A DNA stretch of 64,000 bases from Cyprinodon diabolis (Eukaryota; Chordata; Actinopteri; Cyprinodontiformes; Cyprinodontidae): NCBI GenBank assembly GCA_030533445.1, contig JARPUW010000271.1, positions 62,001 to 126,000 of the forward strand, read 5' to 3'. Below, piece by piece: positions 1 to 38,267 of the stretch. Both the position numbers and the translations under genes were made by a program. Numbering within the stretch: position 1 is the first letter of the stretch; each line of letters opens with the position of its first letter. A model generated the notes under the pieces. It was not told where the DNA came from, did not search any database, and saw only the letters and a list, made by a program, of their open reading frames with translations.

Positions 1-179
1 GCGGGCTCTGCCCGCCTTCTAAGAGCCATTGCAGTGATGAAATCACCAATGGCGGGCTCCGCCCGCCTGCTAAGAGCCATTGCAGTGATGTAATCACCTT
101 TGGCGGGCTCCGCCCGCCTGTTACCATTGGCGGGCTCCGCCCGCCTTCTAAGAGCCATTGCAGTGATGAAATCACCAAT
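1..179. repeat. F array, unit 0 (at least 4 hairpins, cut at left)
   Basis: Hairpins at 1 (lacking one base), 51, 102 and 129. The last spacing is the short 27 bp, as in the 235-bp form. Confidence 0.93.
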
Positions 180-222
180 GGCAATGAGCAATATGCCAGA
201 ATGTATGAGTGTGTATAAGGAA
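1..222 (+). repeat. Macrosatellite unit, right-hand end only (unit 0, cut by window edge)
   Basis: Holds the last four hairpin monomers of the preceding unit (the first lacks its first base; then 51, 102 and the short one at 129), followed by the 43-bp linker to unit 1. It matches 24915-25136 at a constant offset of 24914, so it ends the same way as unit 8. Confidence 0.95.
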
Positions 223-520
223 GAGGCTTTTATTCTGTAGAGTCCTTGTAGTCTTATTTTGAAAGTCTATCATGAATGTGCATCAAAAGATGGGTCACGC
301 CCAGCAGTGATATAGAATCCATTTACAAATGTTAAATCACTGGTTTTCCATGTTATTAGGTGAATAGTTGCTGTATTACAGAGTAAATGGGAGACTTTTA
401 TTGTGAAATTTGCTCTGGGTGTGTTTTGAAAAGGTCACTAGAGTGTAATAAAAACAACCTGGAAGAGTTTGGGTCATAATGTTGAGCCATTTGCATCAAT
501 TAATGCATTAGTATAATCTA
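223..520 (+). repeat. Block A1, ~298-bp subrepeat (unit 1)
   Basis: Opens with GAGGCTTTTATTCTG and contains a second internal start, GAGACTTTTATTGTG, at 391. Ends with a GAGTTTGGGTCATAATG stretch that recurs at the end of A2. Contains an imperfect palindrome TGCATCAATTAATGCA. The same block opens every unit. Confidence 0.85.
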
Positions 521-811
521 GAGGCTTTTATTTTGTAGGGTCCCTGGAGTCTTATTTTGAAAGTCCAACAGAGTTGTGTTTATAGAAAATGTTCAGACCC
601 GTCAATGATAGTTGATTACTTTCCAATCGTTAAATCACTCTTTTTCCATGTTATTAGGGCAGTAGATGAAGCGGAAATGGGAGGCTTTTATTTTGAAATT
701 TGCTATAGGGTGTGTTTTAAACAGTCTCCTAGAGTCTATTCTCTAAAACGGGGTTGAGTTTGGGTCATAATGTTGAGCCATATAGGGCAATAAATATATG
801 TAAAAAATATA
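521..811 (+). repeat. Block A2, ~291-bp subrepeat (unit 1)
   Basis: Second copy of the A subrepeat, with starts of the form GAGGCTTTTATTTTG at 521 and 681. It shares the TTGAAAGTC, CCATGTTATTAGG and GTTTGGGTCATAATG landmarks with A1 in the same order. A 66-codon frame runs through it from a TTG at 557, but stops interrupt it in units 3, 6, 10 and 18, so I do not call it a gene. AATAAA occurs at 789-794. Confidence 0.85.
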
Positions 812-957
812 GAGGCTTTTATTTTGTAGGGTCCCTGGAGTCTTATTTTGAAAGTCTATCAGTGCTGAGTGGCAAGGGAAGTGTCATGTACAGCAGTCAT
901 ATAGTATCCATTTCCCAATGTTAAATCAGTCCTTTCACCCTCCATTAGATTAATATG
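812..957 (+). repeat. Block A3, partial A subrepeat (unit 1)
   Basis: Third, truncated copy: it has the opening GAGGCTTTTATTTTG and TTGAAAGTCTATCA, then TTAAATCA and CCATTAGATTAATATG corresponding to the first half of A1. The second half is missing; the sequence passes into the palindrome at 958. Confidence 0.8.
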
Positions 958-974
958 TGCTGTTTAAAACAGCA
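958..974. repeat. Short palindrome, arms TGCTGTTT / AAACAGCA
   Basis: Two perfect 8-base arms around a single central A. It is present at the same place in the units I compared and marks the end of the A-type sequence. Confidence 0.8.
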
Positions 975-977
975 GAG

Positions 978-1075
978 GTAAAATCTGTTTGAAGCTTGGT
1001 AACCTTGACAACGCTTAACGAGCCTCTCACTGACACAGACAACAGCTGCACTCACTATTGGTTTCTTCTTCCCAG
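978..1075 (+). other. Intron-like stretch (candidate 98-bp mini-intron)
   Basis: It begins with AG|GTAAAAT, contains CTGAC-type branch-point candidates, and ends with TTTCTTCTTCCCAG|G after a pyrimidine tract. The length would suit a short teleost intron. All three elements recur in the other units, but so does all surrounding sequence, so conservation adds no proof. No exon coding potential is visible. Confidence 0.2.
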
Positions 1076-1100
1076 GCTTTTTTGTATGGGAAGAACGACA

Positions 1101-1570
1101 CCGAACAAACGACTACTGATCAAAAACCGTATGAGTTATTCAAAAAACATTTTCACCATGAGCATCAGCAATCCTTCGACTCCAACTATGCCAACTTTGG
1201 TGTATGTGTGTCATTCAGAAAAATATTTATGACGAGTTGAAAACACATAGTCTGATTCGTTTCTCTCCCATCTTCAGCTCAAAAAGAATAGAGAAAGGCT
1301 GAAACTCTCATCGACTTTAGGTTGGTCTGGAGGGTTTTTAAGGAAAAGTATTAATCCTACCGTAATTCCGAAGACATTGTGTGAGTCCAGAGGTTTCAGT
1401 CTACAAACTGACCAAAAATGGTGACTGTAGCTCCAAATATGTGGCCGTGAGGGCGAGAATAAGATGTTTGATCTTAAAAAAATGGCCGCCTCACACTAAG
1501 ATTTCAGCAGCTGCACTCTAGCAGGCTGCTGCAGAAGCTAACTGTCAGCTAGCTTCCAGGTGCTTACCCT
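1101..1570 (+). repeat. Block B1, long B subrepeat (unit 1)
   Basis: Starts with CCGAACAAACGACTACTG and runs 470 bp to the next CCGAAC start. Its first ~430 bp are a paralogue of 2026-2459 (B4 plus the start of C), about 925 bp downstream. It contains the GGTCTGGAGGGTTTTTAAGG stretch that served as one side of the deletion in unit 7. Near its end there is an inverted repeat GAAGCTA / TAGCTTC. Confidence 0.85.
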
Positions 1571-1793
1571 CCGAACAAACGACTGCTGAGCAAAAACCGT
1601 AAAAGATATCTGAAAAATTCTTTCAGTGAAAGCAACATCTATCCTTTGTCTCAGACTGGGGTAACCTTCATGTCTGTAGGTCTTTCACAACCCAAAACGA
1701 AGCACAAACAAAATGGTTGGCCCACCTGCTCCTCCCTTTGTTTGAACTGCAGGACCTCACTCTCACTCACCTTTTAGCTGCTAAAGCACCCCT
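1571..1793 (+). repeat. Block B2, 223-bp B subrepeat (unit 1)
   Basis: Starts with CCGAACAAACGACTGCTGAG followed by CAAAAACCG. Landmarks CTCAGACTGGGGTAACC and TCATGTCTGTAGGTC align with B3. An extra diverged relative sits in unit 10 at 29233-29461. Confidence 0.85.
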
Positions 1794-2025
1794 CCGAACA
1801 AACGACTGCTGAGTAAAAACCGTAAAAGGTATCTGAAAAATTCTTTTTATCTAAGCGACAGCTATATCTTGTCTTCAATTGGAGTAACTTTCATGGCTGT
1901 AGGTCATCTACAAACTGAATGGGAAGAGAAAGAAAAAGAAAAAACGTTTCATCACACCTAAGCTTCTAATTGAGCTAGCTGCAGCAGGTCACTGTCACTC
2001 AGCTTTCAGGTGCTTAAAATGTCCT
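1794..2025 (+). repeat. Block B3, 232-bp B subrepeat (unit 1)
   Basis: Same opening as B2 but with GAGTAAAAACCG. It aligns through TTGGAGTAACTTTCATGGC and CTGTAGGTC, and contains an A/G-rich tract (GAAGAGAAAGAAAAAGAAAA) near 1923-1942. Confidence 0.85.
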
Positions 2026-2306
2026 CCGAACAAACGACTGCTGAGCAAAAACCGTATGAGTTATTCAAAAATTTTTTTCACCGTGAGCGTCAGTCATCCT
2101 TCGACTCCAACTATGCCAACTTTGGTGTATGTGTGTCATTCAGAAAAATATTTATGACGAGTTTAAAACACATAGTCTGATTAGTTTTTCTCCCCTCTTC
2201 TGCTCCAAAACCAATGAAAAACGGCTCTGATTTTCATCGACTTTAGATCGGTCTGGAGGGTTTTTAAGGAAAAGTATTAATCCTACAGTAATTCCGAAGA
2301 TATTGT
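2026..2306 (+). repeat. Block B4, paralogue of B1 (unit 1)
   Basis: Starts with CCGAACAAACGACTGCTGAG and follows B1 closely (CCTTCGACTCCAACTATGCC, then ATTCAGAAAAATATTTATG). In units 2, 4, 5, 6, 11, 15 and 18 a CTGA-to-CGGA change in it removes a stop, so a 78-codon frame is open there only. This is a chance effect, not a gene. Confidence 0.85.
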
Positions 2307-2650
2307 GTGGGTCCAGAGATTTCAGTCTACAAACTGACCAAAAATGGTGACTCTAGCTATAAATATGTGGCCGTGAGGGCGAGTTTAAAATGTTTTTTTG
2401 TGTTTAAAAAACGCCTGCCTCACACTCTAGCTTTTCAGTTGCTCCACTCTAGCAGGCTGGATTTTGCTAAAACTTTGTGGCGCTTGAGGTCTGATTATAC
2501 AAAAACCGTAGCAGTTATCAACATACCGTCTTCAGTTTTAAATAGACGAAGGATTTATCTACAAACTGAGCTTCAAACTGTTTTTCTAGGTGAATGTATG
2601 GCGACACAGTGAAGTGCTGTTTTTTATGCTTTTTTTTCCCTCTCCCCATT
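2307..2650 (+). repeat. Block C, AT-rich segment (unit 1)
   Basis: Starts as the continuation of the B1/B4 duplication (GTTTAAAAAACGCCTGCCTC against B1's AAAAAAATGGCCGCCTC), then becomes unit-specific. A 101-codon frame opens at a GTG at 2307. It is truncated by TAA in units 6, 15 and 16 and frameshifted in unit 18, so it is not called a gene. It ends in a T-rich tract near 2618-2640. Confidence 0.8.
2358..2365 (+). promoter_or_regulatory. TATA-like octamer TATAAATA (weak)
   Basis: Exact match to the TATAWAWR consensus, present at the same position in C in the units examined. The paralogous position in B1 has lost it (CTCCAAATA). An octamer like this is common by chance in AT-rich DNA, and no transcript is known to me. 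Confidence 0.15.
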
Positions 2651-2840
2651 CATTTCCTATGGGATTTTTTTGCGACGTTTTCGCTAATAATTCGCAAACC
2701 TTCGGACTAATGAGAAAGTTTTATACAAGCACACATCACCCCATTGGTCCCGACGCGTGTGCCAACTTTGGGCCCGATCCGCCAAACCGTGCGGGACTAG
2801 TTACGCGCCGAAGTTTTGGGTATACGGGAGAATTATAATA
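2651..2840 (+). repeat. Block D, CpG-rich segment ending in a TAA microsatellite (unit 1)
   Basis: I count 16 CpG sites between 2671 and 2830, unlike the CpG-poor A block. Landmarks are TTTTGCGACGTTTTCGC, GGTCCCGACGCGTGTGCC and GGGACTAGTTACGCGCC. It ends GGGAGAATTATAATAA, with 0-2 extra TAA in other units. The TAA tail resembles the 3' end of a non-LTR retrotransposon or SINE, but I recognise no family and see no reverse transcriptase. Confidence 0.7.
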
Positions 2841-2845
2841 ACTAG

Positions 2846-2865
2846 AAAATTTCTAAAGAAATTTT
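2846..2865. repeat. Perfect inverted repeat AAAATTTC-TAAA-GAAATTTT
   Basis: 8-bp arms, 4-base loop. It was unchanged in every unit I checked. It lies at the junction where 66-bp repeats are inserted in seven units. Confidence 0.9.
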
Positions 2866-2870
2866 GAGGG

Positions 2871-2884
2871 GGGCCACCTACTGC
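2871..2884 (-). promoter_or_regulatory. CTCF-like core motif, one per unit
   Basis: Read on the minus strand as GCAGTAGGTGGCCC, it fits the vertebrate CTCF consensus CCASYAGRKGGCRS at 12 of 14 positions (mismatches at 1 and 13). The 14 bases are the same in all 20 units; other starts: 6040, 9347, 12437, 15578, 19101, 21343, 24617, 27785, 31236, 34408, 37748, 40917, 44158, 47299, 50576, 53746, 56942, 60245, 63414. Binding is untested; some human macrosatellites bind CTCF. Confidence 0.3.
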
Positions 2885-3112
2885 CCGTCTGGGGAACCGG
2901 GCCAATACGGCCCTGGCAAGTGACGTCGGGGCTCCCCAGACCAACTGCTTACGCCTTTGAGGGCTGCTGAGGGAAGGAAAGAGGGCAAGTTCATGGGCAA
3001 AGAGAGCTGTGTGCCACTTGTGCTGAAATCTGGGAAATAGACGTGCACAGCGTATGATGCACAAGGGTAATATGGGTTGTCCATATTGAAACACAGTGGG
3101 TAAAGCCCAGTT

Positions 3113-3347
3113 GGCGGGCTTTGCCCGCCTGGTAGGAGCCATCTCAGTGAAGAAAAAAATCACCAATGGCGGGCTCTGCCCGCCTTCTAAGAGCCATTGC
3201 AGTGATGAAATCACCAATGGCGGGCTCAGCCCGCCTGCTAAGAGCCATTGCAGTGATGTAATCACCTTTGGCGGGCTCCGCCCGCCTGTTACCATTGGCG
3301 GGCTCCGCCCGCCTTCTAAGAGCCATTGCAGTGATGAAATCACCAAT
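3113..3347. repeat. F array, 51-bp double-hairpin minisatellite, unit 1 (5 hairpins)
   Basis: Hairpins GGCGGGC-loop-GCCCGCC start at 3113, 3168, 3219, 3270 and 3297, with spacings 55, 51, 51 and 27. Between them lies a second hairpin: arms GCCATTG / CAATGGC outside and GTGAT / ATCAC inside, with a GAA or GTA loop. The 55-bp first monomer has a longer A-run; the 27-bp monomer lacks 24 bp of the second hairpin. This is the commonest (235-bp) form. Confidence 0.95.
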
Positions 3348-3390
3348 GGCAATGAGCAATATGCCAGAATGTATGAGTGTGTATAAGGAA

Positions 3391-6300
3391 GAGGCTTTTA
3401 TTCTGTAGAGTCCTTGTAGTCTTATTTTGAAAGTCTATCATGAATGTGCATCAAAAGATGGGTCACGCCCAGCAGTGATATAGAATCCATTTCCAAATGT
3501 TAAATCACTGGTTTTCCATGTTATTAGGTGAATAGTTGCTGTATTACAGAGTAAATGGGAGACTTTTATTGTGAAATTTGCTCTGGGGTGTGTTTTGAAA
3601 AGGTCACTAGAGTCTAATAAAAACAACCTGGAAGAGTTTGGGTCATAATGTTGAGCCATTTGCATCAATTAATGCATTAGTATAATCTAGAGGCTTTTAT
3701 TTTGTAGGGTCCCTGGAGTCTTATTTTGAAAGTCCAACAGAGTTGTGTTTATAGAAAATGTTCAGACCCGTCAATGATAGTTGATTACTTTCCAATCGTT
3801 AAATCACTCTTTTTCCATGTTATTAGGGCAGTAGATGAAGCGGAAATGGGAGGCTTTTATTTTGAAATTTGCTATAGGGTGTGTTTTAAACAGTCTCCTA
3901 GAGTCTATTCTCTAAAACGGGGTTGAGTTTGGGTCATAATGTTGAGCCATATAGGGCAATAAATATATGTAAAAAATATAGAGGCTTTTATTTTGTAGGG
4001 TCCCTGGAGTCTTATTTTGAAAGTCTATCAGTGCTGAGTGGCAAGGGAAGTGTCATGGACAGCAGTCATATAGTATCCATTTCCCAATGTTAAATCAGTC
4101 CTTTCACCCTCCATTAGATTAATATGTGCTGTTTAAAACAGCAGAGGTAAAATCTGTTTGAAGCTTGGTAACCTTGACAACGCTTAACGAGCCTCTCACT
4201 GACACAGACAACAGCTGCACTCACTATTGGTTTCTTCTTCCCAGGCTTTTTTGTATGGGAAGAACGGCACCGAACAAACGACTACTGATCAAAAACCGTA
4301 TGAGTTATTCAAAAAACATTTTCACCATGAGCATCAGCAATCCTTCGACTCCAACTATACCAACTTTGGTGTATGTGTGTCATTCAGAAAAATATTTATG
4401 ACGAGTTGAAAACACATAGTCTGATTCGTTTCTCTCCCATCTTCAGCTCAAAAAGAATAGAGAAAGGCTGAAACTCTCATCGACTTTAGGTTGGTCTGGA
4501 GGGTTTTTAAGGAAAAGTATTAATCCTACCGTAATTCCGAAGACATTGTGTGAGTCCAGAGGTTTCAGTCTACAAACTGACCAAAAATGGTGACTGTAGC
4601 TCCAAATATGTGGCCGTGAGGGCGAGAATAAGATGTTTGATCTTAAAAAAATGGCCGCCTCACACTAAGATTTCAGCAGCTGCACTCTAGCAGGCTGCTG
4701 CAGAAGCTAACTGTCAGCTAGCTTCCAGGTGCTTACCCTCCGAACAAACGACTGCTGAGCAAAAACCGTAAAAGATATCTGAAAAATTCTTTCAGTGAAA
4801 GCAACATCTATCCTTTGTCTCAGACTGGGGTAACCTTCATGTCTGTAGGTCTTTCACAACCCAAAACGAAGCACAAACAAAATGGTTGGCCCACCTGCTC
4901 CTCCCTTTGTTTGAACTGCAGGACCTCACTCTCACTCACCTTTTAGCTGCTAAAGCACCCCTCCGAACAAACGACTGCTGAGTAAAAACCGTAAAAGGTG
5001 TCTGAAAAATTCTTTTTATCTAAGCGACAGCTATATCTTGTCTTCAATTGGAGTAACTTTCATGGCTGTAGGTCATCTACAAACTGAATGGGAAGAGAAA
5101 GAAAAAGAAAAAACGTTTCATCACACCTAAGCTTCTAATTGAGCTAGCTGCAGCAGGTCACTGTCACTCAGCTTTCAGGTGCTTAAAATGTCCTCCGAAC
5201 AAACGACTGCTGAGCAAAAACCGTATGAGTTATTCAAAAAATTTTTTCACCGTGAGCGTCAGACATCCTTCGACTCCAACTATGCCAACTTTGGTGTATG
5301 TGTGTCATTCAGAAAAATATTTATGACGAGTTTAAAACACATAGTCGGATTCGTTTTTCTCCCCTCTTCTGCTCCAAAACCAATGAAAAACGGCTCTGAT
5401 TTTCATCGACTTTAGGTCGGTCTGGAGGGTTTTTAAGGAAAAGTATTAATCCTACCGTAATTCCGAAGATATTGTGTGGGTCCAGAGATTTCAGTCTACA
5501 AACTGACCAAAAATGGTGACTCTAGCTATAAATATGTGGCCGTGAGGGCGAGTTTAAAATGTTTTTTTGTGTTTAAAAAACGCCTGCCTCACACTCTAGC
5601 TTTTCAGTTGCTCCACTCTAGCAGGCTGGATTTTGCTAAAACTTTGTGGCGCTTGAGGTCTGATTATACAAAAACCGTAGCAGTTATCAACATACCGTCT
5701 TCAGTTTTAAATAGACGAAGGATTTATCTACAAACTGAGCTTCAAACTGTTTTTCTAGGTGAATGTATGCCGACACAGTGAAGTGCTGTTTTTTATGCTT
5801 TTTTTTTCCTCTCCCCATTCATTTCCTATGGGATTTTTTTGCGACGTTTTCGCTAATAATTCGCAAACCTTCGGACTAATGAGAAAGTTTTATACAAGCA
5901 CACATCACCCCATTGGTCCCGACGCGTGTGCCAACTTTGGGCCCGATCCGCCAAACCGTGCGGGACTAGTTACGCGCCGAAGTTTTGGGTATACGGGAGA
6001 ATTATAATAACTAGAAAATTTCTAAAGAAATTTTGAGGGGGGCCACCTACTGCCCGTCTTGGGAACCGGGCCAATACGGCCCTGGCAAGTGACGTCGGGG
6101 CTCCCCAGACCAACTGCTTACGCCTTTGAGGGCTGCTGAGGGAAGGAAAGAGGGCAAGTTCATGGGCAAAGAGAGCTGTGTGCCACTTGTGCTGACATCT
6201 GGGAAATAGACGTGCACAGCGTATGATGCACAAGGGTAATATGGGTTGTCCATATTGAAACACAGTGGGTAAAGCCCAGTTGGCGGGCTTCGCCCGCCTG

Positions 6301-6559
6301 CTAGGAGCCATCTCAGTGAAGAAAAAAATCACCAATGGCGGGCTCTGCCCGCCTTCTAAGAGCCATTGCAGTGATGAAATCACCAATGGCGGGCTCCGCC
6401 CGCCTGCTAAGAGCCATTGCAGTGATGTAATCACCTTTGGCGGGCTCCGCCCGCCTGTTACCATTGGCGGGCTCCGCCCGCCTTCTAAGAGCCATTGCAG
6501 TGATGAAATCACCAATGGCAATGAGCAATATGCCAGAATGTATGAGTGTGTATAAGGAA
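3391..6559 (+). repeat. Macrosatellite unit 2 (3169 bp)
   Basis: Full A-F layout, no 66-bp repeat, five F hairpins. In B3 it has GGTGTCTG where most units have GGTATCTG, a variant shared with units 4, 5 and 15. In E it has GTCTTGGG and GCTGACATC, shared with units 6 and 8. It is therefore a mosaic of two haplotypes. Confidence 0.97.
6282..6516. repeat. F array, unit 2 (5 hairpins, 235 bp)
   Basis: Same spacing pattern as in unit 1. The first loop is TTC instead of TTT, and the first spacer reads CTGCTAGGAGCC instead of CTGGTAGGAGCC. Confidence 0.95.
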
Positions 6560-9183
6560 GAGGCTTTTATTCTGTAGAGTCCTTGTAGTCTTATTTTGAA
6601 AGTCTATCATGAATGTGCATCAAAAGATGGGTCACGCCCAGCAGTGATATAGAATCCATTTCCAAATGTTAAATCACTGGTTTTCCATGTTATTAGGTGA
6701 ATAGTTGCTGTATTACAGAGTAAATGGGAGACTTTTATTGTGAAATTTGCTCTGGGGTGTGTTTTGAAAAGGTCACTAGAGTCTAATAAAAACAACCTGG
6801 AAGAGTTTGGGTCATAATGTTGAGCCATTTGCATCAATTAATGCATTAGTATAATCTAGAGGCTTTTATTTTGTAGGGTCGCTGGAGTCTTATTTTGAAA
6901 GTCCAACAGAGTTGTGTTTATAGAAAATGTTCAGACCCGTCAATGATAGTTGATTAGTTTCCAATCGTTAAATCACTCTTTTTCCATGTTATTAGGGCAG
7001 TAGATGAAGCGGAAATGGGAGGCTTTTATTTTGAAATTTGCTATAGGGTGTGTTTTAAACAGTCTCCTAGAGTCTTTTCTCTAAAACGGGGTTGAGTTTG
7101 GGTCATAATGTTGAGCCATATAGGGCAATAAATATATGTAAAAAATATAGAGGCTTTTATTTTGTAGGGTCCCTGGAGTCTTATTTTGAAAGTCTATCAG
7201 TGCTGAGTGGCAAGGGAAGTGTCATGGACAGCAGTCATATAGTATCCATTTCCCAATGTTAAATCAGTCCTTTCACCCTCCATTAGATTAATATGTGCTG
7301 TTTAAAACAGCAGAGGTAAAATCTCTTTGAAGCTTGGTAACCTTGACAACGCTTAACGAGCCTCTCACTGACACAGACAACAGCTGCACTCACTATTGGT
7401 TTCTTCTTCCCAGGCTTTTTTGTATGGGAAGAACGGCACCGAACAAACGACTACTGATCAAAAACCGTATGAGTTATTCAAAAAACATTTTCACCATGAG
7501 CATCAGCAATCCTTCGACTCCAACTATACCAACTTTGGTGTATGTGTGTCATTCAGAAAAATATTTATGACGAGTTGAAAACACATAGTCTGATTCGTTT
7601 CTCTCCCATCTTCAGCTCAAAAAGAATAGAGAAAGGCTGAAACTCTCATCGACTTTAGGTTGGTCTGGAGGGTTTTTAAGGAAAAGTATTAATCCTACCG
7701 TAATTCCGAAGACATTGTGTGAGTCCAGAGGTTTCAGTCTACAAACTGACCAAAAATGGTGACTGTAGCTCCAAATATGTGGCCGTGAGGGCGAGAATAA
7801 GATGTTTGATCTGAAAAAAATGGCCGCCTCACACTAAGATTTCAGCAGCTGCACTCTAGCAGGCTGCTGCAGAAGCTAACTGTCAGCTAGCTTCCAGGTG
7901 CTTACCCTCCGAACAAACGACTGCTGAGCAAAAACCGTAAAAGATATCTGAAAAATTCTTTCAGTGAAAGCAACATCTATCCTTTGTCTCAGACTGGGGT
8001 AACCTTCATGTCTGTAGGTCTTTCACAACCCAAAACGAAGCACAAACAAAATGGTTGGCCCACCTGCTCCTCCCTTTCTTTTAACTGCAGGACCTCACTC
8101 TCACTCACCTTTTAGCTGCTAAAGCACCCCTCCGAACAAACGACTGCTGAGTAAAAACCGTAAAAGGTATCTGAAAAATTCTTTTTATCTAAGCGACAGC
8201 TATATCTTGTCTTCGATTGGAGTAACTTTCATGGCTGTAGGTCATCTACAAACTGAATGGGAAGAGAAAGAAAAAGAAAAAACGTTTCATCACACATAAG
8301 CTTCTAATTGAGCTAGCTGCAGCAGGTCACTGTCACTCAGCTTTCAGGTGCTTAAAATGTCCTCCAAACAAACGACTGCTGAGCAAAAACCGTATGAGTT
8401 ATTCAAAAAATTTTTTCACCGTGAGCGTCAGTCATCCTTCGACTCCAACTATGCCAACTTTGGTGTATGTGTGTCATTCAGAAAAATATTTATGACGAGT
8501 TTAAAACACATAGTCTGATTCGTTTTTCTCCCCTCTTCTGCTCCAAAACCAATGAAAAACGGCTCTGATTTTCATCGACTTTAGGTCGGTCTGGAGGGTT
8601 TTTAAGGAAAAGTATTAATCCTACCGTAATTCCGAAGATATTGTGTGGGTCCAGAGATTTCAGTCTACAAACTGACCAAAAATGGTGACTCTAGCTATAA
8701 ATATGTGGCCGTGAGGGCGAGTTTAAAATGTTTTTTTGTGTTTAAAAAACGCCTGCCTCACACTCTAGCTTTTCAGTTGCTCCACTCTAGCAGGCTGGAT
8801 TTTGCTAAAACTTTGTGGCGCTTGAGGTCTGATTATACAAAAACCGTAGCAGTTATCAACATACCGTCTTCAGTTTTAAATAGACGAAGGATTTATCTAC
8901 AAACTGAGCTTCAAACTGTTTTTCTAGGTGAATGTATGCCGACACAGTGAAGTGCTGTTTTTTATGCTTTTTTTTTCCTCTCCCCATTCATTTCCTATGG
9001 GATTTTTTTGCGACGTTTTCGCTAATAATTCGCAAACCTTCGGACTAATGAGAAAGTTTTATACAAGCACACATCACCCCATTGGTCCCGACGCGTGTGC
9101 CAACTTTGGGCCCGATCCGCCAAACCGTGCGGGACTAGTTACGCGCCGAAGTTTTGGGTATACGGGAGAATTATAATAATAAT

Positions 9184-9315
9184 AATAATACGCGGAATAA
9201 ATATGTGCAATAGTAGTAGGTGGGCCATGCCTTCGGCATGTGGCCCCCCAATAATACGCGGAATAAATATGTGCAATAGTAGTAGGTGGGCCATGCCTTC
9301 GGCATGTGGCCCCCC
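9184..9315. repeat. 66-bp hairpin repeat, 2 copies (unit 3)
   Basis: Monomer opens AATAATACGCGGAATAAATA, has a hairpin CATGCC-TTC-GGCATG, and ends GTGGCCCCCC. The copies start at 9184 and 9250. Preceded by two extra TAA triplets. Confidence 0.95.
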
Positions 9316-9588
9316 AACTAGAAAATTTCTAAAGAAATTTTGAGGGGGGCCACCTACTGCCCGTATGGGGAACCGGGCCAATACGGCCCTGGCCAGTGAC
9401 GTCGGGGCTCCCCAGACCAACTGCTTACGCCTTAGAGGGCTGCTGAGGGAAGGAAAGAGGGCTAGGTCATGGGCAAAGAGAGCTGTGTGCCACTTGTGCT
9501 GAAATCTGGGAAATAGACGTGCACAGCGTATGATGCACAAGGGTAATATGGGTTGTCCATATTGAACCGCAGTGGGTAAAGCCCAGTT

Positions 9589-9745
9589 GGCGGGCTTCGC
9601 CCGCCTGCTAGGAGCCATCTCAGTGAAGAAAAAAATCACCAATGGCGGGCTCTGCCCGCCTTCTAATAGCCATTGCAGTGATGAAATCACCATTGGCGGG
9701 CTCCGCCCTCCTTCTAAGAGCCATTGCAGTGATGAAATCACCAAT
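9589..9745. repeat. F array, unit 3 (3 hairpins, 157 bp)
   Basis: Lacks one 51-bp and the 27-bp monomer. The third hairpin is broken: its right arm reads GCCCTCC. CTAATAGCC replaces CTAAGAGCC in one spacer. Confidence 0.93.
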
Positions 9746-9788
9746 GGCAATGAGCAATATGCCAGAATGTATGAGTGTGTATAAGGAA

Positions 9789-12700
9789 GAGGCTTTTATT
9801 CTGTAGAGTCCTTGTAGTCTTATTTTGAAAGTCTATCATGAATGTGCATCAAAAGATGGGTCACGCCCAGCAGTGATATAGAATCCATTTCCAAATGTTA
9901 AATCACTGGTTTTCCATGTTATTAGGTGAATACTTGCTGTATTACAGAGTAAATGGGAGACTTTTATTGTGAAATTTGCTCTGGGTGTGTTTTGAAAAGG
10001 TCACTAGAGTCTAATAAAAACAACCTGGAAGAGTTTGGGTCATAATGTTGAGCCATTTGCATCAATTAATGCATTAGTATAATCTAGAGGCTTTTATTTT
10101 GTAGGGTCGCTGGAGTCTTATTTTGAAAGTCCAACAGAGTTGTGTTTATAGAAAATGTTCAGACCCGTCAATGATAGTTGATTACTTTCCAATCGTTAAA
10201 TCACTCTTTTTCCATGTTATTAGGGCAGTAGATGAAGCGGAAATGGGAGGCTTTTATTTTGAAATTTGCTATAGGGTGTGTTTTAAACAGTCTCCTAGAG
10301 TCTATTCTCTAAAACGGGGTTGAGTTTGGGTCATAATATTGAGCCATATAGGGCAATAAATATATGTAAAAAATATAGAGGCTTTTATTTTGTAGGGTCC
10401 CTGGAGTCTTATTTTGAAAGTCTATCAGTGCTGAGTGGCAAGGGAAGTGTCATGGACAGCAGTCATATAGTATCCATTTCCCAATGTTAAATCAGTCCTT
10501 TCACCCTCCATTAGATTAATATGTGCTGTTTAAAACAGCAGAGGTAAAATCTGTTTGAAGCTTGGTAACCTTGACAACGCTTAACGAGCCTCTCACTGAC
10601 ACAGACAACAGCTGCACTCACTATTGGTTTCTTCTTCCCAGGCTTTTTTGTATGGGAAGAACGGCAACGAAAACAAACGACTACTGATCAAAAACCGTAT
10701 GAGTTATTCAAAAAACATTTTCACCATGAGCATCAGCAATCCTTCGACTCCAAGTATACCAACTTTGGTGTATGTGTGTCATTCAGAACAATATTTATGA
10801 CGACTTGAAAACACATAGTCTGATTCGTTTCTCTCCCATCTTCAGCTCAAAAAGAATGGAGAAAGGCCGAAACTCATCGACTTTAGGTTGGTCTGGAGGG
10901 TTTTTAAGGAAAAGTATTAATCCTACCGTAATTCCGAAGACATTGTGTGAGTCCAGAGGTTTCAGTCTACAAACTGACCAAAAATGGTGACTGTAGCTCC
11001 AAATATGTGGCCGTGAGGGCGAGAATAAGATGTTTGATCTTAAAAAAATGGCCGCCTCACACTAAGATTTCAGCAGCTGCACTCTAGCAGGCTGCTGCAG
11101 AAGCTAACTGTCAGCTAGCTTCCAGGTGCTTACCCTCCGAACAAACGACTGCTGAGCAAAAACCGTAAAAGATATCTGAAAAATTCTTTCAGTGAAAGCA
11201 ACATCTATCCTTTGTCTCAGACTGGGGTAACCTTCATGTCTGTAGGTCTTTCACAACCCAAAACGAAGCACAAACAAAATGGTTGGCCCACCTGCTCCTC
11301 CCTTTGTTTGAACTGCAGGACCTCACTCTCACTCACCTTTTAGCTGCTAAAGCACCCCTCCGAACAAACGACTGCTGAGTAAAAACCGTAAAAGGTGTCT
11401 GAAAAATTCTTTTTATCTAAGCGACAGCTATATCTTGTCTTCAATTGGAGTAACTTTCATGGCTGTAGGTCATCTACAAACTGAATGGGAAGAGAAAGAA
11501 AAAGAAAAAACGTTTCATCACACCTAAGCTTCTAATTGAGCTAGCTGCAGCAGGTCACTGTCACTCAGCTTTCAGGTGCTTAAAATGTCCTCCGAACAAA
11601 CGACTGCTGAGCAAAAACCGTATGAGTTATTCAAAAAATTTTTTCACCGTGAGCGTCAGTCATCCTTCGACTCCAACTATGCCAACTTTGGTGTATGTGT
11701 GTCATTCAGAAAAATATTTATGACGAGTTTAAAACACATAGTCGGATTCGTTTTTCTCCCCTGTTCTGCTCCAAAACCAATGAAAAACGGCTCTGATTTT
11801 CATCGACTTTAGGTCGGTCTGGAGGGTTTTTAAGGAAAAGTATTAATCCTACCGTAATTCCGAAGATATCGTGTGGGTCCAGAGATTTCAGTCTACAAAC
11901 TGACCAAAAATGGTGACTCTAGCTATAAATATGTGGCCGTGAGGGCGAGTTTAAAATGTTTTTTTGTGTTTAAAAAACGCCTGCCTCACACTCTAGCTTT
12001 TCAGTTGCTCCACTCTAGCAGGCTGGATTTTGCTAAAACTTTGTGGCGCTTGAGGTCTGATTATACAAAAACCGTAGCAGTTATCAACATACCGTCTTCA
12101 GTTTTAAATAGACGAAGGATTTATCTACAAACTGAGCTTCAAACTGTTTTTCTAGGTGAATGTATGGCGACACAGTGAAGTGCTGTTTTTTATGCTTTTT
12201 TTTCCCTCTCCCCATTCATTTCCTATGGGATTTTTTTGCGACGTTTTCGCTAATAATTCGCAAACCTTCGGACTAATGAGAAAGTTTTATACAAGCACAC
12301 ATCACCCCATTGGTCCCGACGCGTGTGCCAACTTTGGGCCCGATCCGCCAAACCGTGCGGGACTAGTTACGCGCCGAAGTTTTGGGTATACGGGAGAATT
12401 ATAATAACTAGAAAATTTCTAAAGAAATTTTGAGGGGGGCCACCTACTGCCCGTCTGGGGAACAGGGCCAATACGGCCCTGGCAAGTGATGTCGGGGCTC
12501 CCCAGACCAACTGCTTACGCCTTTGAGGGCTGCTGAGGGAAGGAAAGAGGGCTAGGTCATGGGCAAAGAGAGCTGTGTGCCACTTGTGCTGAAATCTGGG
12601 AAATAGACGTGCACAGCGTATGATGCAAAAGGGTAATATGGGTTGTCCATATTGAACCGCAGTGGGTAAAGCTCAGTTGGTGGGCTCCGCCCGCCTGCTA

Positions 12701-12929
12701 GGAGCCCTTGCAGCGATGAAAAAAATCACCAATGGCGGGCTCTGCCCGCCTGCTAAGAGCCATTGCAGTGATGAAATCACCAATGGCGGGCTCCGCCCGC
12801 CTTCTAAGAGCCATTGCAGTGATGAAATCACCAATGGCGGGCTCCGCCCGCCTTCTAAGAGCCATTGCAGTGATGAAATTACAAATGGCAATGAGCAATA
12901 TGCCAGAATGTATGAGTGTGTATAAGGAA
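9789..12929 (+). repeat. Macrosatellite unit 4 (3141 bp)
   Basis: No 66-bp repeat; four F hairpins of the 208-bp array type. Its B1 start reads GGCAACGAAAACAAACG, not GGCACCGAACAAACG, as in units 5, 7 and 15. Its E block has CAGGGCC, which lengthens the inner E hairpin arm to six pairs. Confidence 0.97.
12679..12886. repeat. F array, unit 4 (4 hairpins, 208 bp)
   Basis: First left arm GGTGGGC (a G-T mismatch in DNA, a G-U pair in RNA). No short monomer. The last spacer has ATTACAAATGGC instead of ATCACCAATGGC, which weakens the second hairpin. Confidence 0.94.
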
Positions 12930-15900
12930 GAGGCTTTTATTCTGTAGAGTCCCTGGAGTCTTATTTTGAAAGTCTATCATGGAAGTGCATCTAAAGATGG
13001 GTCATGCCCAGCAGTTATATAGAATCAATTTCCAAATGTTAAATCACTGGTTTTCCATGTTATTAGGTGAATAGTTGCTGTATTACAGAGTAAATGGGAG
13101 ACTTTTATTGTGAAATTTGCTCTGGGTGTGTTTTGAAAAGGTCACTAGAGTCTAATAAAAACAACCTGGAAGAGTTTGGGTCATAATGTTGAGCCATTTG
13201 CATCAATTAATGCATTAGTATAATCTAGAGGCTTTTATTTTGTAGGGTCGCTGGAGTCTTATTTTGAAAGTCCAACAGAGTTGTGTTTATAGAAAATGTT
13301 CAGACCCGTCAATGATAGTTGATTACTTTCCAATCGTTAAATCACTCTTTTTCCATGTTATTAGGACAGTAGATGAAGCGGAAATGGGAGGCTTTTATTT
13401 TGAAATTTGCTATAGGGTGTGTTTTAAACAGTCTCCTAGAGTCTATTCTCTAAAACGGGGTTGAGTTTGGGTCATAATATTGAGCCATATAGGGCAATAA
13501 ATATATGTAAAAAATATAGAGGCTTTTATTTTGTAGGGTCCCTGGAGTCTTATTTTGAAAGTCTATCAGTGCTGAGTGGCAAGGGAAGTGTCATGGACAG
13601 CAGTCATATAGTATCCATTTCCCAATGTTAAATCAGTCCTTTCACCCTCCATTAGATTAATATGTGCTGTTTAAAACAGCAGAGGTAAAATCTGTTTGAA
13701 GCTTGGTAACCTTGACAACGCTTAACGAGCCTCTCACTGACACAGACAACAGCTGCACTCACTATTGGTTTCTTCTTCCCAGGCTTTTTTGTATGGGAAG
13801 AACGGCAACGAAAACAAACGACTACTGATCAAAAACCGTATGAGTTATTCAAAAAACATTTTGACCATGAGCATCAGCAATCCTTCGACTCCAAGTATAC
13901 CAACTTTGGTGTATGTGTGTCATTCAGAACAATATTTATGACGACTTGAAAACACATAGTCTGATTCGTTTCTCTCCCATCTTCAGCTCAAAAAGAATGG
14001 AGAAAGGCTGAAACTCATCGACTTTAGGTTGGTCTGGAGGGTTTTTAAGGAAAAGTATTAATCCTACCGTAATTCCGAAGACATTGTGTGAGTCCAGAGG
14101 TTTCAGTCTACAAACTGACCAAAAATGGTGACTGTAGCTCCAAATATGTGGCCGTGAGGGCGAGAATAAGATGTTTGATCTTAAAAAAATGGCCGCCTCA
14201 CACTAAGATTTCAGCAGCTGCACTCTAGCAGGCTGCTGCAGAAGCTAACTGTCAGCTAGCTTCCAGGTGCTTACCCTCCGAAAAAACGACTGCTGAGCAA
14301 AAACCGTAAAAGATATCTGAAAAATTCTTTCAGTGAAAGCAACATCTATCCTTTGTCTCAGACTGGGGTAACCTTCATGTCTGTAGGTCTTTCACAACCC
14401 AAAACGAAGCACAAACAAAATGGTTGGCCCACCTGCTCCTCCCTTTGTTTGAACTGCAGGACCTCACTCTCACTCACCTTTTAGCTGCTAAAGCACCCCT
14501 CCGAACAAACGACTGCTGAGTAAAAACCGTAAAAGGTGTCTGAAAAATTCTTTTTATCTAAGCGACAGCTATATCTTGTCTTCAATTGGAGTAACTTTCA
14601 TGGCTGTAGGTCATCTACAAACTGAATGGGAAGAGAAAGAAAAAGAAAAAACGTTTCATCACACCTAAGCTTCTAATTGAGCTAGCTGCAGCAGGTCACT
14701 GTCACTCAGCTTTCAGGTGCTTAAAATGTCCTCCGAACAAACGACTGCTGAGCAAAAACCGTATGAGTTATTCAAAAAATTTTTTCACCGTGAGCGTCAG
14801 TCATCCTTCGACTCCAACTATGCCAACTTTGGTGTATGTGTGTCATTCAGAAAAATATTTATGACAAGTTTAAAACACATAGTCGGATTCGTTTTTCTCC
14901 CCTCTTCTGCTCCAAAACCAATGAAAAACGGCTCTGATTTTCATCGACTTTAGGTCGGTCTGGAGGGTTTTTAAGGAAAAGTATTAATCCTACCGTAATT
15001 CCGAAGATATTGTGTGGGTCCAGAGATTTCAGTCTACAAACTGACCAAAAATGGTGACTCTAGCTATAAATATGTGGCCGTGAGGGCGAGTTTAAAATGT
15101 TTTTTTGTGTTTAAAAAACGCCTGCCTCACACTCTAGCTTTTCAGTTGCTCCACTCTAGCAGGCTGGATTTTGCTAAAACTTTGTGGCGCTTGAGGTCTG
15201 ATTATACAAAAACCGTAGCAGTTATCAACATACCGTCTTCAGTTTTAAATAGACGAAGGATTTATCTACAAACTGAGCTTCAAACTGTTTTTCTAGGTGA
15301 ATGTATGGCGACACAGTGAAGTGCTGTTTTTTATGCTTTTTTTTCCCTCTCCCCATTCATTTCCTATGGGATTTTTTTGCGACGTTTTCGCTAATAATTC
15401 GCAAACCTTCGGACTAATGAGAAAGTTTTATACAAGCACACATCACCCCATTGGTCCCGACGCGTGTGCCAACTTTGGGCCCGATCCGCCAAACCGTGCG
15501 GGACTAGTTACGCGCCGAAGTTTTGGGTATACGGGAGAATTATAATAACTAGAAAATTTCTAAAGAAATTTTGAGGGGGGCCACCTACTGCCCGTCTGGG
15601 GAACCGGGCCAATACGGCCCTGGCAAGTGATGTCGGGGCTCCCCAGACCAACTGCTTATGCCTTTGAGGGCTGCTGAGGGAAGGAAAGAGGGCTAGGTCA
15701 TGGGCAAAGAGAGCTGTGTGCCACCTGTGCTGAAATCTGGGTAATAGACGTGCACAGCGTATGATGCACAAGGGTAATATGGGTTGTCCATATTGAACCG
15801 CAGTGGGTAAAGCTCAGTTGGTGGGCTCCGCCCGCCTGCTAGGAGCCCTTGCAGCGATGAAAAAAATCCCCAATGGCGGGCATTGCCCGCCTGCTAAGAG

Positions 15901-16125
15901 CCATTGCAGTGATGAAATCACCAATGGCGGGCTCCGCCCGCCTGCTAGGAGCCATTGCAGTGATGAAAAAAATCACCATTGGCGGGCTCCGCCCGCCTCC
16001 TAACAGCCATTGCAGTGATGAAATCACCAATGGCGGGCTCCGCCTGCCTTCTAAGAGCCATTGCAGTGATGAAATTACAAATGGCTATAAGCAATATGCC
16101 AGAATGTATGAGTGTGTATAAGGAA
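12930..16125 (+). repeat. Macrosatellite unit 5 (3196 bp)
   Basis: No 66-bp repeat. The F array is the long five-hairpin form with an ATT loop in its second hairpin, shared only with unit 17. Block A carries GCATCTAAAG and CAGTTATAT, shared with units 12, 15, 16 and 21. The B2 motif at 14279 has CCGAAAAAACG, a private change. Confidence 0.97.
15820..16083. repeat. F array, unit 5 (5 hairpins, 264 bp)
   Basis: Distinct long form: second hairpin with loop ATT, a second monomer with a longer A-run, and a last hairpin with GCCTGCC on the right arm. It corresponds to unit 17. Confidence 0.94.
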
Positions 16126-18739
16126 GAGGCTTTTATTTTGTAGAGTCCCTGTAGTCTTATTTTGAAAGTCTATCATGGAAGTGCATCTATAGATGGGTCA
16201 TGCCCAGCAGTGATATAGAATCCATTTCCAAATGTTAAATCGCTGGTTTTCCATGTTATTAGGTGAATAGTTCCTGTATTACAGAGTAAATGGGGGACTT
16301 TTATTGTGAAATTTGCTCTGGGGTGTGTTTTGAAAAGGTCACTAGAGTCTAATAAAAACAACCTGGAAGAGTTTGGGTCATAATGTTGAGCCATTTGCAT
16401 CAATTAATGCATTAGTATAATCTAGAGGCTTTTATTTTGTAGGGTCCCTGGAGTCTTATTTTGAAAGTCCAACAGAGTTGTGTTTAGAGAAAATGTTCAG
16501 ACCCATCAATGATAGTTGATGACTTTCCAATCGTTAAATCACTCTTTTTCCATTTTATTAGGGCAGTAGATGAAGCGGAAATGGGAGGCTTTTATTTTGA
16601 AATTTGCCATAGGGTGTGTTTTAAACAGTCTCCTAGAGTCTATTCTCTAAAATGGGGTTGAGTTTGGGTCATAATGTTGAGCCATATAGGGCAATAAATA
16701 TATGTAAAAAATATAGAGGCTTTTATTTTGAAGGGTCCCTGGAGTCTTATTTTGAAAGTCTATCAGTGCTGAGTGGCAAGGGAAGTGTCATGGACGGCAG
16801 TCATATAGTATCCATTTCCCAATGTTAAATCAGTGCTTTCACCCTCCATTAGATTAATATGTGCTGTTTAAAACAGCAGAGGTAAAATCTGTTTGAAGCT
16901 TGGTAACCTTGACAACGCTTAATGAGCCTCTCACTGACACAGACAACAGCTGCACTCACTATTGGTTTCTTCTTCCCAGGCTTTTTTGTATGGGAAGAAC
17001 GGCACCGAACAAACGACTGCTGAGCAAAAACCGTATGAGTTATTAAAAAAAAAATTTCACCATGAGCATCAGCAATCCTTCGACTCCAACTATACCAACT
17101 TTGGTGTATGTGTGTCATTCAGAACAATATTTATGACGACTTGAAAACACATAGTCTGATTCGTTTTTCTCCCATCTTCAGTTTAAAAAGAATGGAGAAA
17201 GGCTGAAACTCATCGACTTTAGGTTGGTCTGGAGGGTTTTTAAGGAAAAGTATTAATCCTACCGTAATTCCGAAGACATTGTGTGAGTCCAGAGGTTTCA
17301 GTCTACAACCTGACCAAAAATGGTGACTGTAGGTCCAAATATGTGGCCGTGAGGGCGAGAATAAGATGTTTGATCTTAAAAAAATGGCCGCCTCACACTA
17401 AGATTTCAGCAGCTGCACTCTAGCAGGCTGCTGCAGAAGCTAACTGTCAGCTAGCTTCCAGGTGCTTACCCTCCGAACAAACGACTGCTGAGCAAAAACC
17501 GTAAAAGGTATCTGAAAAATTCTTTCAGTGAAAGCAACATCTATCCTTTGTCTCAGACTGGGGTAACCTTCATGTCTGTAGGTCTTTCACAACCCAAAAC
17601 GAAGCAAAAACAAAATGGTTGGCCCACCTGCTCCTCCCTTTCTTTTAACTGCAGGACCTCACTCTCACTCACCTTTCAGCTGCTAAAGCACCCCTCCGAA
17701 CAAACGACTGCTGAGTAAAAACCATAAAAGGTATCTCAAAAATTATTTTTATCTAAGCGACAGCTATATCTTGTCTTCAATTGGAGTAACTTTCATGGCT
17801 GTAGGTCATCTACAACCTGAATGGGAAGAGAAAGAAAAAGAAAAAACGTTTCGTCACACATGAGCTTCTAATTGAGCTAGCTGCAGCAGGTCACTCACCC
17901 AGCTTTGAGGTGCTTAAAATGTCCTCCGAACAAACGACTGCTGAGCAAAAACCGTATGAGTTATTCAAAAAATTTTTTCACCGTGAGCGTCAGTCATCCT
18001 TCGACTCCAACTATGCCAACTTTGGTGTATGTGTGTCATTCAGAAAAATATTTATGACGAGTTTAAAACACATAGTCGGATTCGTTTTTCTCCCCTCTTC
18101 TGCTCCAAAACCAATGAAAAACGGCTCTGATTTTCATCGACTTTAGGTCGGTCTGGAGGGTTTTTAAGGAAAAGTATTAATCCTACCGTAATTCCGAAGA
18201 TATTGTGTGGGTCCAGAGATTTCAGTCTACAAACTGACCAAAAATGGTGACTCTAGCTATAAATATGTGGCCGTGAGGGCGAGTTTAAAATGTTTTTTTG
18301 TGTTTAAAAAACGCCTGCCTCACACTCTAGCTTTTCAGTTGCTCCACTCTAGCAGGCTGGATTTTGCTAAAACTTTGTGGCGCTTGAGGTCTGATTATAC
18401 AAAAACCATAGCAGTTATCAACATACCGTCTTCAGTTTTAAATAGACGAAGGATTTATCTACAAACTGAGCTTTAAACTGTTTTTCTAGGTGAATGTATG
18501 CCGACACAGTGAAGCGCTGTTTTTTATGCTTTTTTTTCCCTCTCCCCATTCATTTCCTATGGGATTTTTTTGCGACGTTTTCGCTAATAATTCGCAAACC
18601 TTCGGACTAATGAGAAAGTTTTATACAAGCACACATCACCCCATTGGTCCCGACGCGTGTGCCAACTTTGGGCCCGATCCGCCAAACCGTGCGGGACTAG
18701 TTACGCGCCGAAGTTTTGGGTATACGGGAGAATTATAAT

Positions 18740-19069
18740 AATAATACGCGGAATAAATATGTGCAATAGTAGTAGGTGGGCCATGCCTTCGGCATGTGGC
18801 CCCCCAATAATACGCGGAATAAATATGTGCAATAGTAGTAGGTGGGCCATGCCTTCGGCATGTGGCCCCCCAATAATACGCGGAATAAATATGTGCAATA
18901 GTAGTAGGTGGGCCATGCCTTCGGCATGTGGCCCCCCAATAATACGCGGAATAAATATGTGCAATAGTAGTAGGTGGGCCATGCCTTCGGCATGTGGCCC
19001 CCCAATAATACGCGGAATAAATATGTGCAATAGTAGTAGGTGGGCCATGCCTTCGGCATGTGGCCCCCC
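18740..19069. repeat. 66-bp hairpin repeat, 5 copies (unit 6)
   Basis: Starts at 18740, 18806, 18872, 18938 and 19004. The copies look identical to each other, which points to recent expansion. Since 66 is 22 codons, frames stay open on both strands across the array. Confidence 0.96.
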
Positions 19070-19342
19070 AACTAGAAAATTTCTAAAGAAATTTTGAGGG
19101 GGGCCACCTACTGCCCGTCTTGGGAACCGGGCCAATACGGCCCTGGCAAGTGACGTCGGGGCTCCCCAGACCAACTGCTTACGCCTTTGAGGGCTGCTGA
19201 GGGAAGGAAAGAGGGCAAGTTCATGGGCAAAGAGAGCTGTGTGCCACTTGTGCTGACATCTGGGAAATAGACGTGCACAGCGTATGATGCACAAGGGTAA
19301 TATGGGTTGTCCATATTGAAACACAGTGGGTAAAGCCCAGTT

Positions 19343-19577
19343 GGCGGGCTTCGCCCGCCTGCTAGGAGCCATCTCAGTGAAGAAAAAAATCACCAATGGC
19401 GGGCTCTGCCCGCCTTCTAAGAGCCATTGCAGTGATGAAATCACCAATGGCGGGCTCCGCCCGCCTGCTAAGAGCCATTGCAGTGATGTAATCACCTTTG
19501 GCGGGCTCCGCCCGCCTGTTACCATTGGCGGGCTCCGCCCGCCTTCTAAGAGCCATTGCAGTGATGAAATCACCAAT
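19343..19577. repeat. F array, unit 6 (5 hairpins, 235 bp)
   Basis: Standard 235-bp form with all arms intact and TTC in the first loop. Confidence 0.95.
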
Positions 19578-20721
19578 GGCAATGAGCAATATGCCAGAAT
19601 GTATGAGTGTGTATAAGGAAGAGGCTTTTATTCTGTAGAGTCCTTGTAGTCTTATTTTGAAAGTCTATCATGAATGTGCATCAAAAGATGGGTCACGCCC
19701 AGCAGTGATATAGAATCCATTTACAAATGTTAAATCACTGGTTTTCCATGTTATTAGGTGAATAGTTGCTGTATTACAGAGTAAATGGGAGACTTTTATT
19801 GTGAAATTTGCTCTGGGTGTGTTTTGAAAAGGTCACTAGAGTGTAATAAAAACAACCTGGAAGAGTTTGGGTCATAATGTTGAGCCATTTGCATCAATTA
19901 ATGCATTAGTATAATCTAGAGGCTTTTATTTTGTAGGGTCCCTGGAGTCTTATTTTGAAAGTCCAACAGAGTTGTGTTTATAGAAAATGTTCAGACCCGT
20001 CAATGATAGTTGATTACTTTCCAATCGTTAAATCACTCTTTTTCCATGTTATTAGGGCAGTAGATGAAGCGGAAATGGGAGGCTTTTATTTTGAAATTTG
20101 CTATAGGGTGTGTTTTAAACAGTCTCCTAGAGTCTATTCTCTAAAACGGGGTTGAGTTTGGGTCATAATATTGAGCCATATAGGGCAATAAATATATGTA
20201 AAAAATATAGAGGCTTTTATTTTGTAGGGTCCCTGGAGTCTTATTTTGAAAGTCTATCAGTGCTGAGTGGCAAGGGAAGTGTCATGGACAGCAGTCATAT
20301 AGTATCCATTTCCCAATGTTAAATCAGTCCTTTCACCCTCCATTAGATTAATATGTGCTGTTTAAAACAGCAGAGGTAAAATCTGTTTGAAGCTTGGTAA
20401 CCTTGACAACGCTTAACGAGCCTCTCACTGACACAGACAACAGCTGCACTCACTATTGGTTTCTTCTTCCCAGGCTTTTTTGTATGGGAAGAACGGCAAC
20501 GAAAACAAACGACTACTGATCAAAAACCGTATGAGTTATTCAAAAAACATTTTCACCATGAGCATCAGCAATCCTTCGACTCCAAGTATACCAACTTTGG
20601 TGTATGTGTGTCATTCAGAACAATATTTATGACGACTTGAAAACACATAGTCTGATTCGTTTCTCTCCCATCTTCAGCTCAAAAAGAATGGAGAAAGGCT
20701 GAAACTCATCGACTTTAGGTT

Positions 20722-20772
20722 GGTCTGGAGGGTTTTTAAGGAAAAGTATTAATCCTACCGTAATTCCGAAGA
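20722..20772 (+). other. Deletion junction in unit 7
   Basis: 51-bp stretch from GGTCTGGAGGG to TTCCGAAGA that is common to B1 and B4. Left flank is B1 type (TTAGGTT), right flank is C type (TATTGTGTGGGTCC). The distance between the two copies in intact units is 926 bp (for example 10890 and 11816), which equals the length missing. Confidence 0.93.
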
Positions 20773-25093: not shown

Positions 25094-25136
25094 GGCAATG
25101 AGCAATATGCCAGAATGTATGAGTGTGTATAAGGAA

Positions 25137-31712: not shown

Positions 31713-31755
31713 GGCAATGAGCAATATGCCAGAATGTATGAGTGTGTATAAGGAA

Positions 31756-38224: not shown

Positions 38225-38267
38225 GGCAATGAGCAATATGCCAGAATGTATGAGTGTGTATAAGGAA

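Follow-up and report, generated by a model that had tools for sequence, protein, structure and literature searches.

A hairpin-rich minisatellite of Cyprinodon diabolis as the probable internal repeat block of a Helentron-derived macrosatellite unit

In a 64,000-bp stretch of Cyprinodon diabolis DNA, hereafter the window, a short tandem repeat near the beginning attracted attention by its hairpins. The initial annotation described it as a 51-bp minisatellite whose monomer encodes two consecutive hairpins (I and II), and the locus raises the question of whether such a repeat is a free-standing, structurally maintained element or part of something larger. The repeat was delimited as follows:

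3113..3350, no strand assigned: minisatellite block of five monomers (55, 51, 51, 27 and 54 bp)

The location originally given was correct, with hairpin I (GGCGGGC NNN GCCCGCC) starting at 3113, 3168, 3219, 3270 and 3297. Two of the spacings are indeed 51 bp, but the series of 55, 51, 51 and 27 bp is not uniform. Hairpin I occurs in every monomer of the block and complete hairpin II solely at 3168 and 3297. The estimate of about 95 copies of hairpin I in the window agreed with the counts of 80 exact copies and 94 with up to three substitutions. Genome-wide, 68,556 exact hairpin I sites were found and none for a control pattern read backwards, which is far above chance.

The two-hairpin monomer was complete in 34 of the 94 window monomers, but the design was incomplete in the rest: part of the inner stem of hairpin II is gone in 55-mers, two of its outer pairs are gone in the ...CACCTTT monomers, and 27-mers are without hairpin II. 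The statement that nearly every base lies in a stem was too strong, as 38 of 54 bases were paired. A complete monomer does fold into two consecutive hairpins, but this is one of several folds, and in the predicted fold of the 238-nt block the arms of hairpin I also pair between monomers.

Folding energies were compared with those of 200 dinucleotide shuffles, the check that had been proposed for the locus, and both the block and the complete monomer outperformed shuffled sequence as DNA and as RNA. The monomer with the next GGC reached −18.5 kcal/mol as DNA (shuffle mean −6.8, z −6.4, none of the 200 shuffles as good) and −27.1 as RNA (z −4.6). For the whole block, z ranged from −6.0 to −7.6 on both strands and in both chemistries; the best value among the other twelve 238-nt windows of the repeat unit described below was −2.1 (RNA, both strands). 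Single monomers without the shared GGC folded less strikingly, with z of −1.9 to −3.0 as RNA.

Pairing was then counted across monomers, leaving out those with poor hairpin I arms (2 of 363 in the fetched arrays and 6 of 25 in a diverged array at locus C20). In the fetched arrays, hairpin I was fully paired in 346 of 361 monomers, the inner stem of hairpin II in 270 and its outer stem in 176; the corresponding values for C20 were 14, 9 and 0 of 19. Among distinct 51-mers, variation amounted to 2.9% in the hairpin I arms, 21.9% in the loop and 12.5% in the spacer, the low arm value being partly due to selection of this set by hairpin I. No compensatory double change was seen in the three stems among 49 and 14 distinct monomers; as the arrays are young, this absence is by itself weak evidence. 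A search of Rfam gave no match at the gathering score.

Hairpin I is a well-kept palindrome, and hairpin II is not kept as a structure. A maintained two-hairpin design was not supported, hairpin II being fully paired in under half of the monomers and compensatory changes not being seen. Selection acting on the hairpins as an RNA or single-stranded DNA structure, such as a structured transcript or a protein-binding array, was considered most improbable: the strong fold relative to shuffles and the well-paired, less variable hairpin I arms are in its favour, but the empty compensatory cells, the frequently unpaired outer stem of hairpin II, above all in the diverged C20 array, and the lack of an Rfam family at the gathering score argue against it. 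Most likely, the hairpins are a by-product without a demonstrated role, in which G+C-rich dyads would slip and expand and conversion would keep them near-perfect.

A protein-coding minisatellite was dropped as a candidate: three of four translated frames had no Pfam match, and the fourth, at E 0.11, was below the cut-off. Within the window, positions 28027-29352 hold a divergent array unit, 89.9% identical to the reference over its first part, that carries altered minisatellite monomers (AAAAGCCATTG).

A hairpin-rich minisatellite exists, but it is not free-standing: it forms part of a unit that derives from a transposon. Each unit, about 3.17 kb long, contains such a block with a few monomers, and these units fill the window. 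The features of the array and of its units are:

1..64000, minus strand: whole window, a single head-to-tail array whose 20 unit boundaries all have the same orientation
2842..6010, minus strand: macrosatellite unit of 3,169 bp, delimited by CTAG ends at 2842 and 6011, joint type and unit alignment
2842..2845, minus strand: 3' terminus CTAG, followed by TT in element polarity
2846..2865, minus strand: 3' terminal palindrome AAAATTTC-TTTA-GAAATTTT
2868..2877, minus strand: 3' subterminal inverted repeat, GTGGCCCCCC on the element strand, 26 nt from the terminus
2840..2986, minus strand: 147 bp of 3' end common with the coding copies C20, C664 and C632 at 145 of 147 positions
3390..4104, minus strand: 291-bp internal subrepeats, 2.4 copies
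4270..5628, minus strand: second internal subrepeat region, duplications of about 430 and about 330 bp
9184..9317, minus strand: two tandem 66-bp copies of the 5' terminus
18740..19071, minus strand: five tandem 66-bp 5' termini, then directly the 3' CTAG of the next unit at 19072

The transposon polarity corresponds to the minus strand of the window. Read in this direction, the 3' end is GTGGCCCCCC-TC-AAAATTTC-TTTA-GAAATTTT-CTAG, followed by TT. The palindrome has an 8-bp stem and a 4-nt loop and lies 4 nt from the end; its fold alone is unexceptional (z −1.2). The 66-bp repeat is the 5' terminus of the element. Beside non-array DNA (loci L029, L059 and L063), the 5' end reads TTATT-GGGGGGCCAC-ATGCC-GAA-GGCATGGCCC, with a hairpin nested in the inverted repeat. 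Each 66-mer at 9184..9317 likewise carries the 5' subterminal inverted repeat (subTIR) GGGGGGCCAC and the nested hairpin GGGCCACATGCC-GAA-GGCATGGCCC, that of the second lying at about 9288-9315. The unit at 2842..6010 is one non-autonomous Helentron copy without the 66-bp terminal repeat and ends in a short joint at 6010/6011. In another unit, the second subrepeat region had a period of 223 bp.

Helentrons are the endonuclease-encoding branch of the rolling-circle Helitron transposons. The minisatellite is, with a probability of about 0.92, the internal tandem-repeat block of a non-autonomous Helentron (HINE) whose unit was derived from a coding Helentron by internal deletion. The identity of the unit, its 3' terminus, the gene content of the parent and the presence of coding copies next to and within array units could be read directly in the assembly. 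Asymmetric subTIRs are present, with GGGGGGCCAC about 5 nt from the 5' terminus and 26 nt from the 3' terminus. The perfect subTIR of 10 bp at 26 nt from the 3' end falls outside the HINE ranges of 12-15 bp and 38-60 bp published in the accessible part of PMC4067079.

Three other origins were dropped. The two copies of GGGGGGCCAC are asymmetric and not terminal, which is at odds with a DNA transposon with terminal inverted repeats. A non-LTR retrotransposon, suggested by the variable 66-bp end, was opposed by terminal anatomy, gene content and polarity. For a viral origin, two patterns gave no match among viral contigs.

The coding parent was approached through the Rep domain PF14214 (Helitron_like_N). 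The 14 control genomes gave no match to this domain; the present genome gave 16, nine of which lie in open frames of 2,500 aa or more. For one match, on C20, the distance to a copy of the unit's 3' terminus is 6.8 kb; the match is on the side that Helitron polarity predicts, and its gene is on the predicted strand. The 145/147-bp agreement of the 3' terminus held for all three coding copies named above. The frame of C664 contains Rep, then a PIF1 helicase (E 2e-22) and then a C-terminal Exo_endo_phos domain (residues 1092-1286 of the 1,296-aa piece that was read, E 9.6e-14), and its matches to solved structures include Helraiser, via the helicase. According to a portion of PMC4067079, Rep, helicase and endonuclease in one protein mark Helentrons. 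The C20 frame also contains DUF6570.

Two stretches (3.0 and 5.1 kb) upstream of and at the gene start were 99-100% alike in C20, C282, C632 and C664. Three of the coding copies sit on short contigs and are possible haplotype duplicates. C632 and C664 have a partial second copy of the first, 3.0-kb stretch. In C664 and C632, the 3' end of the coding copy follows directly after 66-mers, and the same is likely for C282, as judged from 61 bp.

The coding copy of C664 spans 60357-82510 (22,154 bp), the sequence between the pieces that were read being inferred from C20. At its far end, diverged monomers come first; the minisatellite and the remainder of the unit follow, with 97.5% identity, and a short joint without a 66-mer then leads to the next unit. 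The diverged C20 minisatellite might have been a separate relic, given the 500-N gap beside it; this reading was dropped, as the same order occurs at C664 without a gap. A comparison of both ends at C664 shows that the 3.17-kb unit is this element minus about 19 kb, the deletion falling between roughly bases 147 and 255 from the 3' end. The unit has lost the gene but retains 147 bp at the 3' end as well as the region that begins with the minisatellite and extends toward the 5' end. At the two coding-copy 5' ends that were examined, the 66-bp terminus with its subTIR was not seen: C664 has the short joint and C20 runs into the gap.

Several observations were made beside these. The upstream end of the C20 Helentron frame (L074:3-392, minus strand) resembles the N-terminus of a herpesvirus tegument protein (PF04843, E 5.5e-6). 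OTU-type proteases are reported in Helentrons (PMC4067079), so that this stretch may represent the capture of another kind of protease. Further frames with a Rep domain, the longest of 3,208 aa, were found on C8, C12, C22, C24 and C3 and probably represent other Helitron or Helentron families with open frames. All four coding loci contain, nested within their non-coding portion, an AT-rich palindromic repeat (L075:2380-3244) that also occurs in many other places of the genome.

The insertion behaviour of the element was examined at copies bordered by non-array DNA. At L029, an isolated copy on C1, and at ten further sites, 11 different non-array flanks are joined at the same base, with AA directly before CTAGAAAATTTCTAAAGAAATTTTGAGGGGGGCCACC; the C20 coding copy also begins at this CTAG, which brings the number of different non-array flanks to 12. 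The ten sites were taken from 100 listed of 244 matches to a pattern that itself required AA. Array ends account for four of them and isolated copies for two; at one, an inverted piece comes next, and the other three had no unit sequence within the stretch examined, 2.9-3.6 kb downstream. Three isolated copies could be read at both ends: L029 allows a 4-bp duplication of CAAA, and in the other two the shared flank bases are at most two or three A.

AA precedes CTAG, corresponding to TT after it in element polarity, in 129 of 129 joints of the fetched loci and in at least seven sequence contexts. Because of overlap between loci, some joints entered this count twice; AA had been a condition in choosing the isolated sites, and 20 of the joint matches came from a query beginning with AA. 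A non-T base adjoins CTAG in 5 of the 16,422 exact 3' ends in the genome, and because nearly all of these ends are in arrays, the rarity of non-T targets is not independent evidence. Copies insert so that CTAG precedes TT, as seen at the 3' joint, and the coding copies presumably supply Rep, helicase and endonuclease to mobilise the units. L029 has 54-bp instead of 66-bp terminal repeats (L029:7687-7799), and the first 514 bp at L029:4587-5100 are identical in 40 scored loci, L029 included.

The assembly comprises 1.22 Gb in 936 contigs. By extrapolation, the family would account for about 52 Mb, or 4.3% of the assembly; this value is the product of the 16,422 ends and the median unit spacing of 3,171 bp, which was obtained from 94 intervals among 100 places listed, all on C1. 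One of these 100 ends stands alone, and the others fall into clusters of 26, 15, 32, 6 and at least 20. Arrays were present on many large contigs among the matches listed.

It is practically negligible, in our estimate, that misassembly made the arrays or the coding copies. Very high similarity, the 500-N gap in the C20 locus and the many short contigs might suggest it, but the occurrence on large contigs, the variation of units within arrays and the 12 different flanks do not fit such an artefact.

Differences were observed among the joints between units. In the window, 7 of 20 joints carry one to five 66-mers and 13 are short. Among 90 joints with enough sequence in view, the 66-mer, and with it the copy of the 5' subTIR, is missing at 54, and up to six 66-mers occur at the others. 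By position, 48 of the 129 joints lie directly before the GGGGGG of a 66-mer; 44 and 16 fall at two TTs of a T-rich stretch just inside the 66-mers, with smaller classes besides. One outer 5' array edge on C1 has about eight stacked 66-mers (L030 6442-6966).

The spread of joints over several TTs near the 5' end suggests insertion of new copies into old ones. Growth of the arrays by insertion into the 5' ends of older copies is held to be slightly better than an even bet. In this scheme, the TTs of an older copy's T-rich 5' end would be the targets of new copies; such self-insertion would push 66-mers outward, so that they become stacked at the outer edge, with short joints inside and a single orientation. 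Unequal exchange would then reshuffle the arrays.

Joint structure also bears on terminator bypass, in which rolling-circle copying passes the 3' end and concatemers integrate. This is a published model for plant Helitron arrays (PMC12628747, partial text), and the tandem 66-bp 5' ends would suit it. A circle, however, should give one fixed joint between CTAG and the 5' terminus, and the joints observed here fall at several TTs; the 66-mer is absent from 54 of 90 joints, adjacent units of the window differ by 0.5-2.7%, and the plant model has repeated 5' ends with single 3' ends, as opposed to a 3' end in each unit here. The model was accordingly regarded as unlikely.

The similarity of units within and between arrays was determined for 56 units that met the cutting rule, from the window (17 units) and 20 other stretches, L029 giving none. 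The distance was 1.33% within arrays and 1.00% between them; outside the window, the values were 0.90% (n = 19) and 0.83% (n = 684), respectively. The nearest neighbour was in the same array for 4.0 of 55 units against 5.6 expected in the full set, and for 0 of 38 against 1.0 expected outside the window. As the outside loci were chosen by exact match to the window block, and as groups on the same chromosome may in some cases be parts of a single array, like L028 and the window next to it, the lack of a within-array excess is suggestive only.

These values are relevant to a conventional satellite, in which unequal crossing-over would amplify a unit and homogenise it locally, the transposon features revealing no more than the origin of the first copy. 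Long arrays in one orientation, the median spacing of 3,171 bp and the mixing of unit subtypes along the window would be expected of it, but in this biased sample units are no more alike within an array than between arrays, and isolated copies exist. Such an origin of the arrays is somewhat unlikely.

A tentative possibility, which falls short of even odds, is that homing of a Helentron to the T-rich 5' end of its own copies gave rise to a macrosatellite that takes up several percent of a genome of vertebrate size, and that the satellite is kept uniform genome-wide by transposition. Coding and non-coding copies of a recently active element would then insert head to tail on many chromosomes, uniformity would come from transposition and not from crossing-over within arrays, and the hairpin block need not act. 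It was considered very unlikely that the block serves the transposon, its dyads stalling copying or recombining in such a way that arrays form: the block is found in the coding copy, in its deletion derivative and in divergent subfamilies, but TT-directed insertion accounts for the arrays without it.

The locus bears on two open questions, the origin of satellites from transposons and the uniformity of dispersed arrays. Because the array unit, isolated insertions, the coding parent and its place within arrays occur in one genome, self-insertion, concatemer integration and unequal crossing-over become separable here largely by sequence. It is also a warning that a striking hairpin minisatellite can be a transposon passenger.

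In kind, the element is already known: HINE internal repeats, tandem Helitrons and a Helitron-related fish satellite are in print. The view that no design like that of the minisatellite had been described did not hold, as Helentrons and HINEs are known to carry internal tandem repeats (PMC4067079, PMC7492417 and PMC12628747, each in part); a literal search of papers for the minisatellite sequence gave no match. In literature that mostly did not cover subscription journals, no case was recognised of a Helentron macrosatellite that makes up several percent of a vertebrate-sized genome and has coding copies inside.

Comparable elements include the HINE/DINE-1 elements of mite and Drosophila, which are non-autonomous Helentrons. 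According to PMC4067079, these likewise have subTIRs, an inverted repeat nested in the 5' subTIR, a 3' palindrome, a T-rich target, optional internal tandem repeats and a partner with Rep, helicase and endonuclease. In comparison, the perfect subTIR and its spacing are shorter here, joints show the 5' terminus either repeated or absent, and the units form large head-to-tail arrays. Cg_HINE of the Pacific oyster (PMC7492417, excerpt) has the same terminal parts, and satellite-like central repeats occur in these non-autonomous Helentrons; there, however, the tandem array lies inside single elements, whereas here the element itself is also an array unit.

Head-to-tail Helitrons, as observed here, are described in the available text of PMC12628747 and PMC5148889, including plant centromeric arrays (Xiong 2016, via PMC12628747) and tandem insertions in the bat Myotis lucifugus, Drosophila, rice and maize (PMC5148889). 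The plant arrays, as presented in the same part of PMC12628747, consist of truncated copies with many 5' ends and single 3' ends, in contrast to the present arrays, in which each unit has a 3' end and which include coding copies. FoHeli of Fusarium likewise has a 5' terminal hairpin with a GAA loop, an arm of which recurs inverted near the 3' end, and its joined ends were taken as a circle; it differs in being fungal, with far fewer copies and small tandem cases (PMC5148889, in part). HduSat17-150 of the armored catfish is also a fish satellite related to a Helitron, but its monomer, as given in an excerpt of PMC11955569, is 150 bp and not a whole element with ends.
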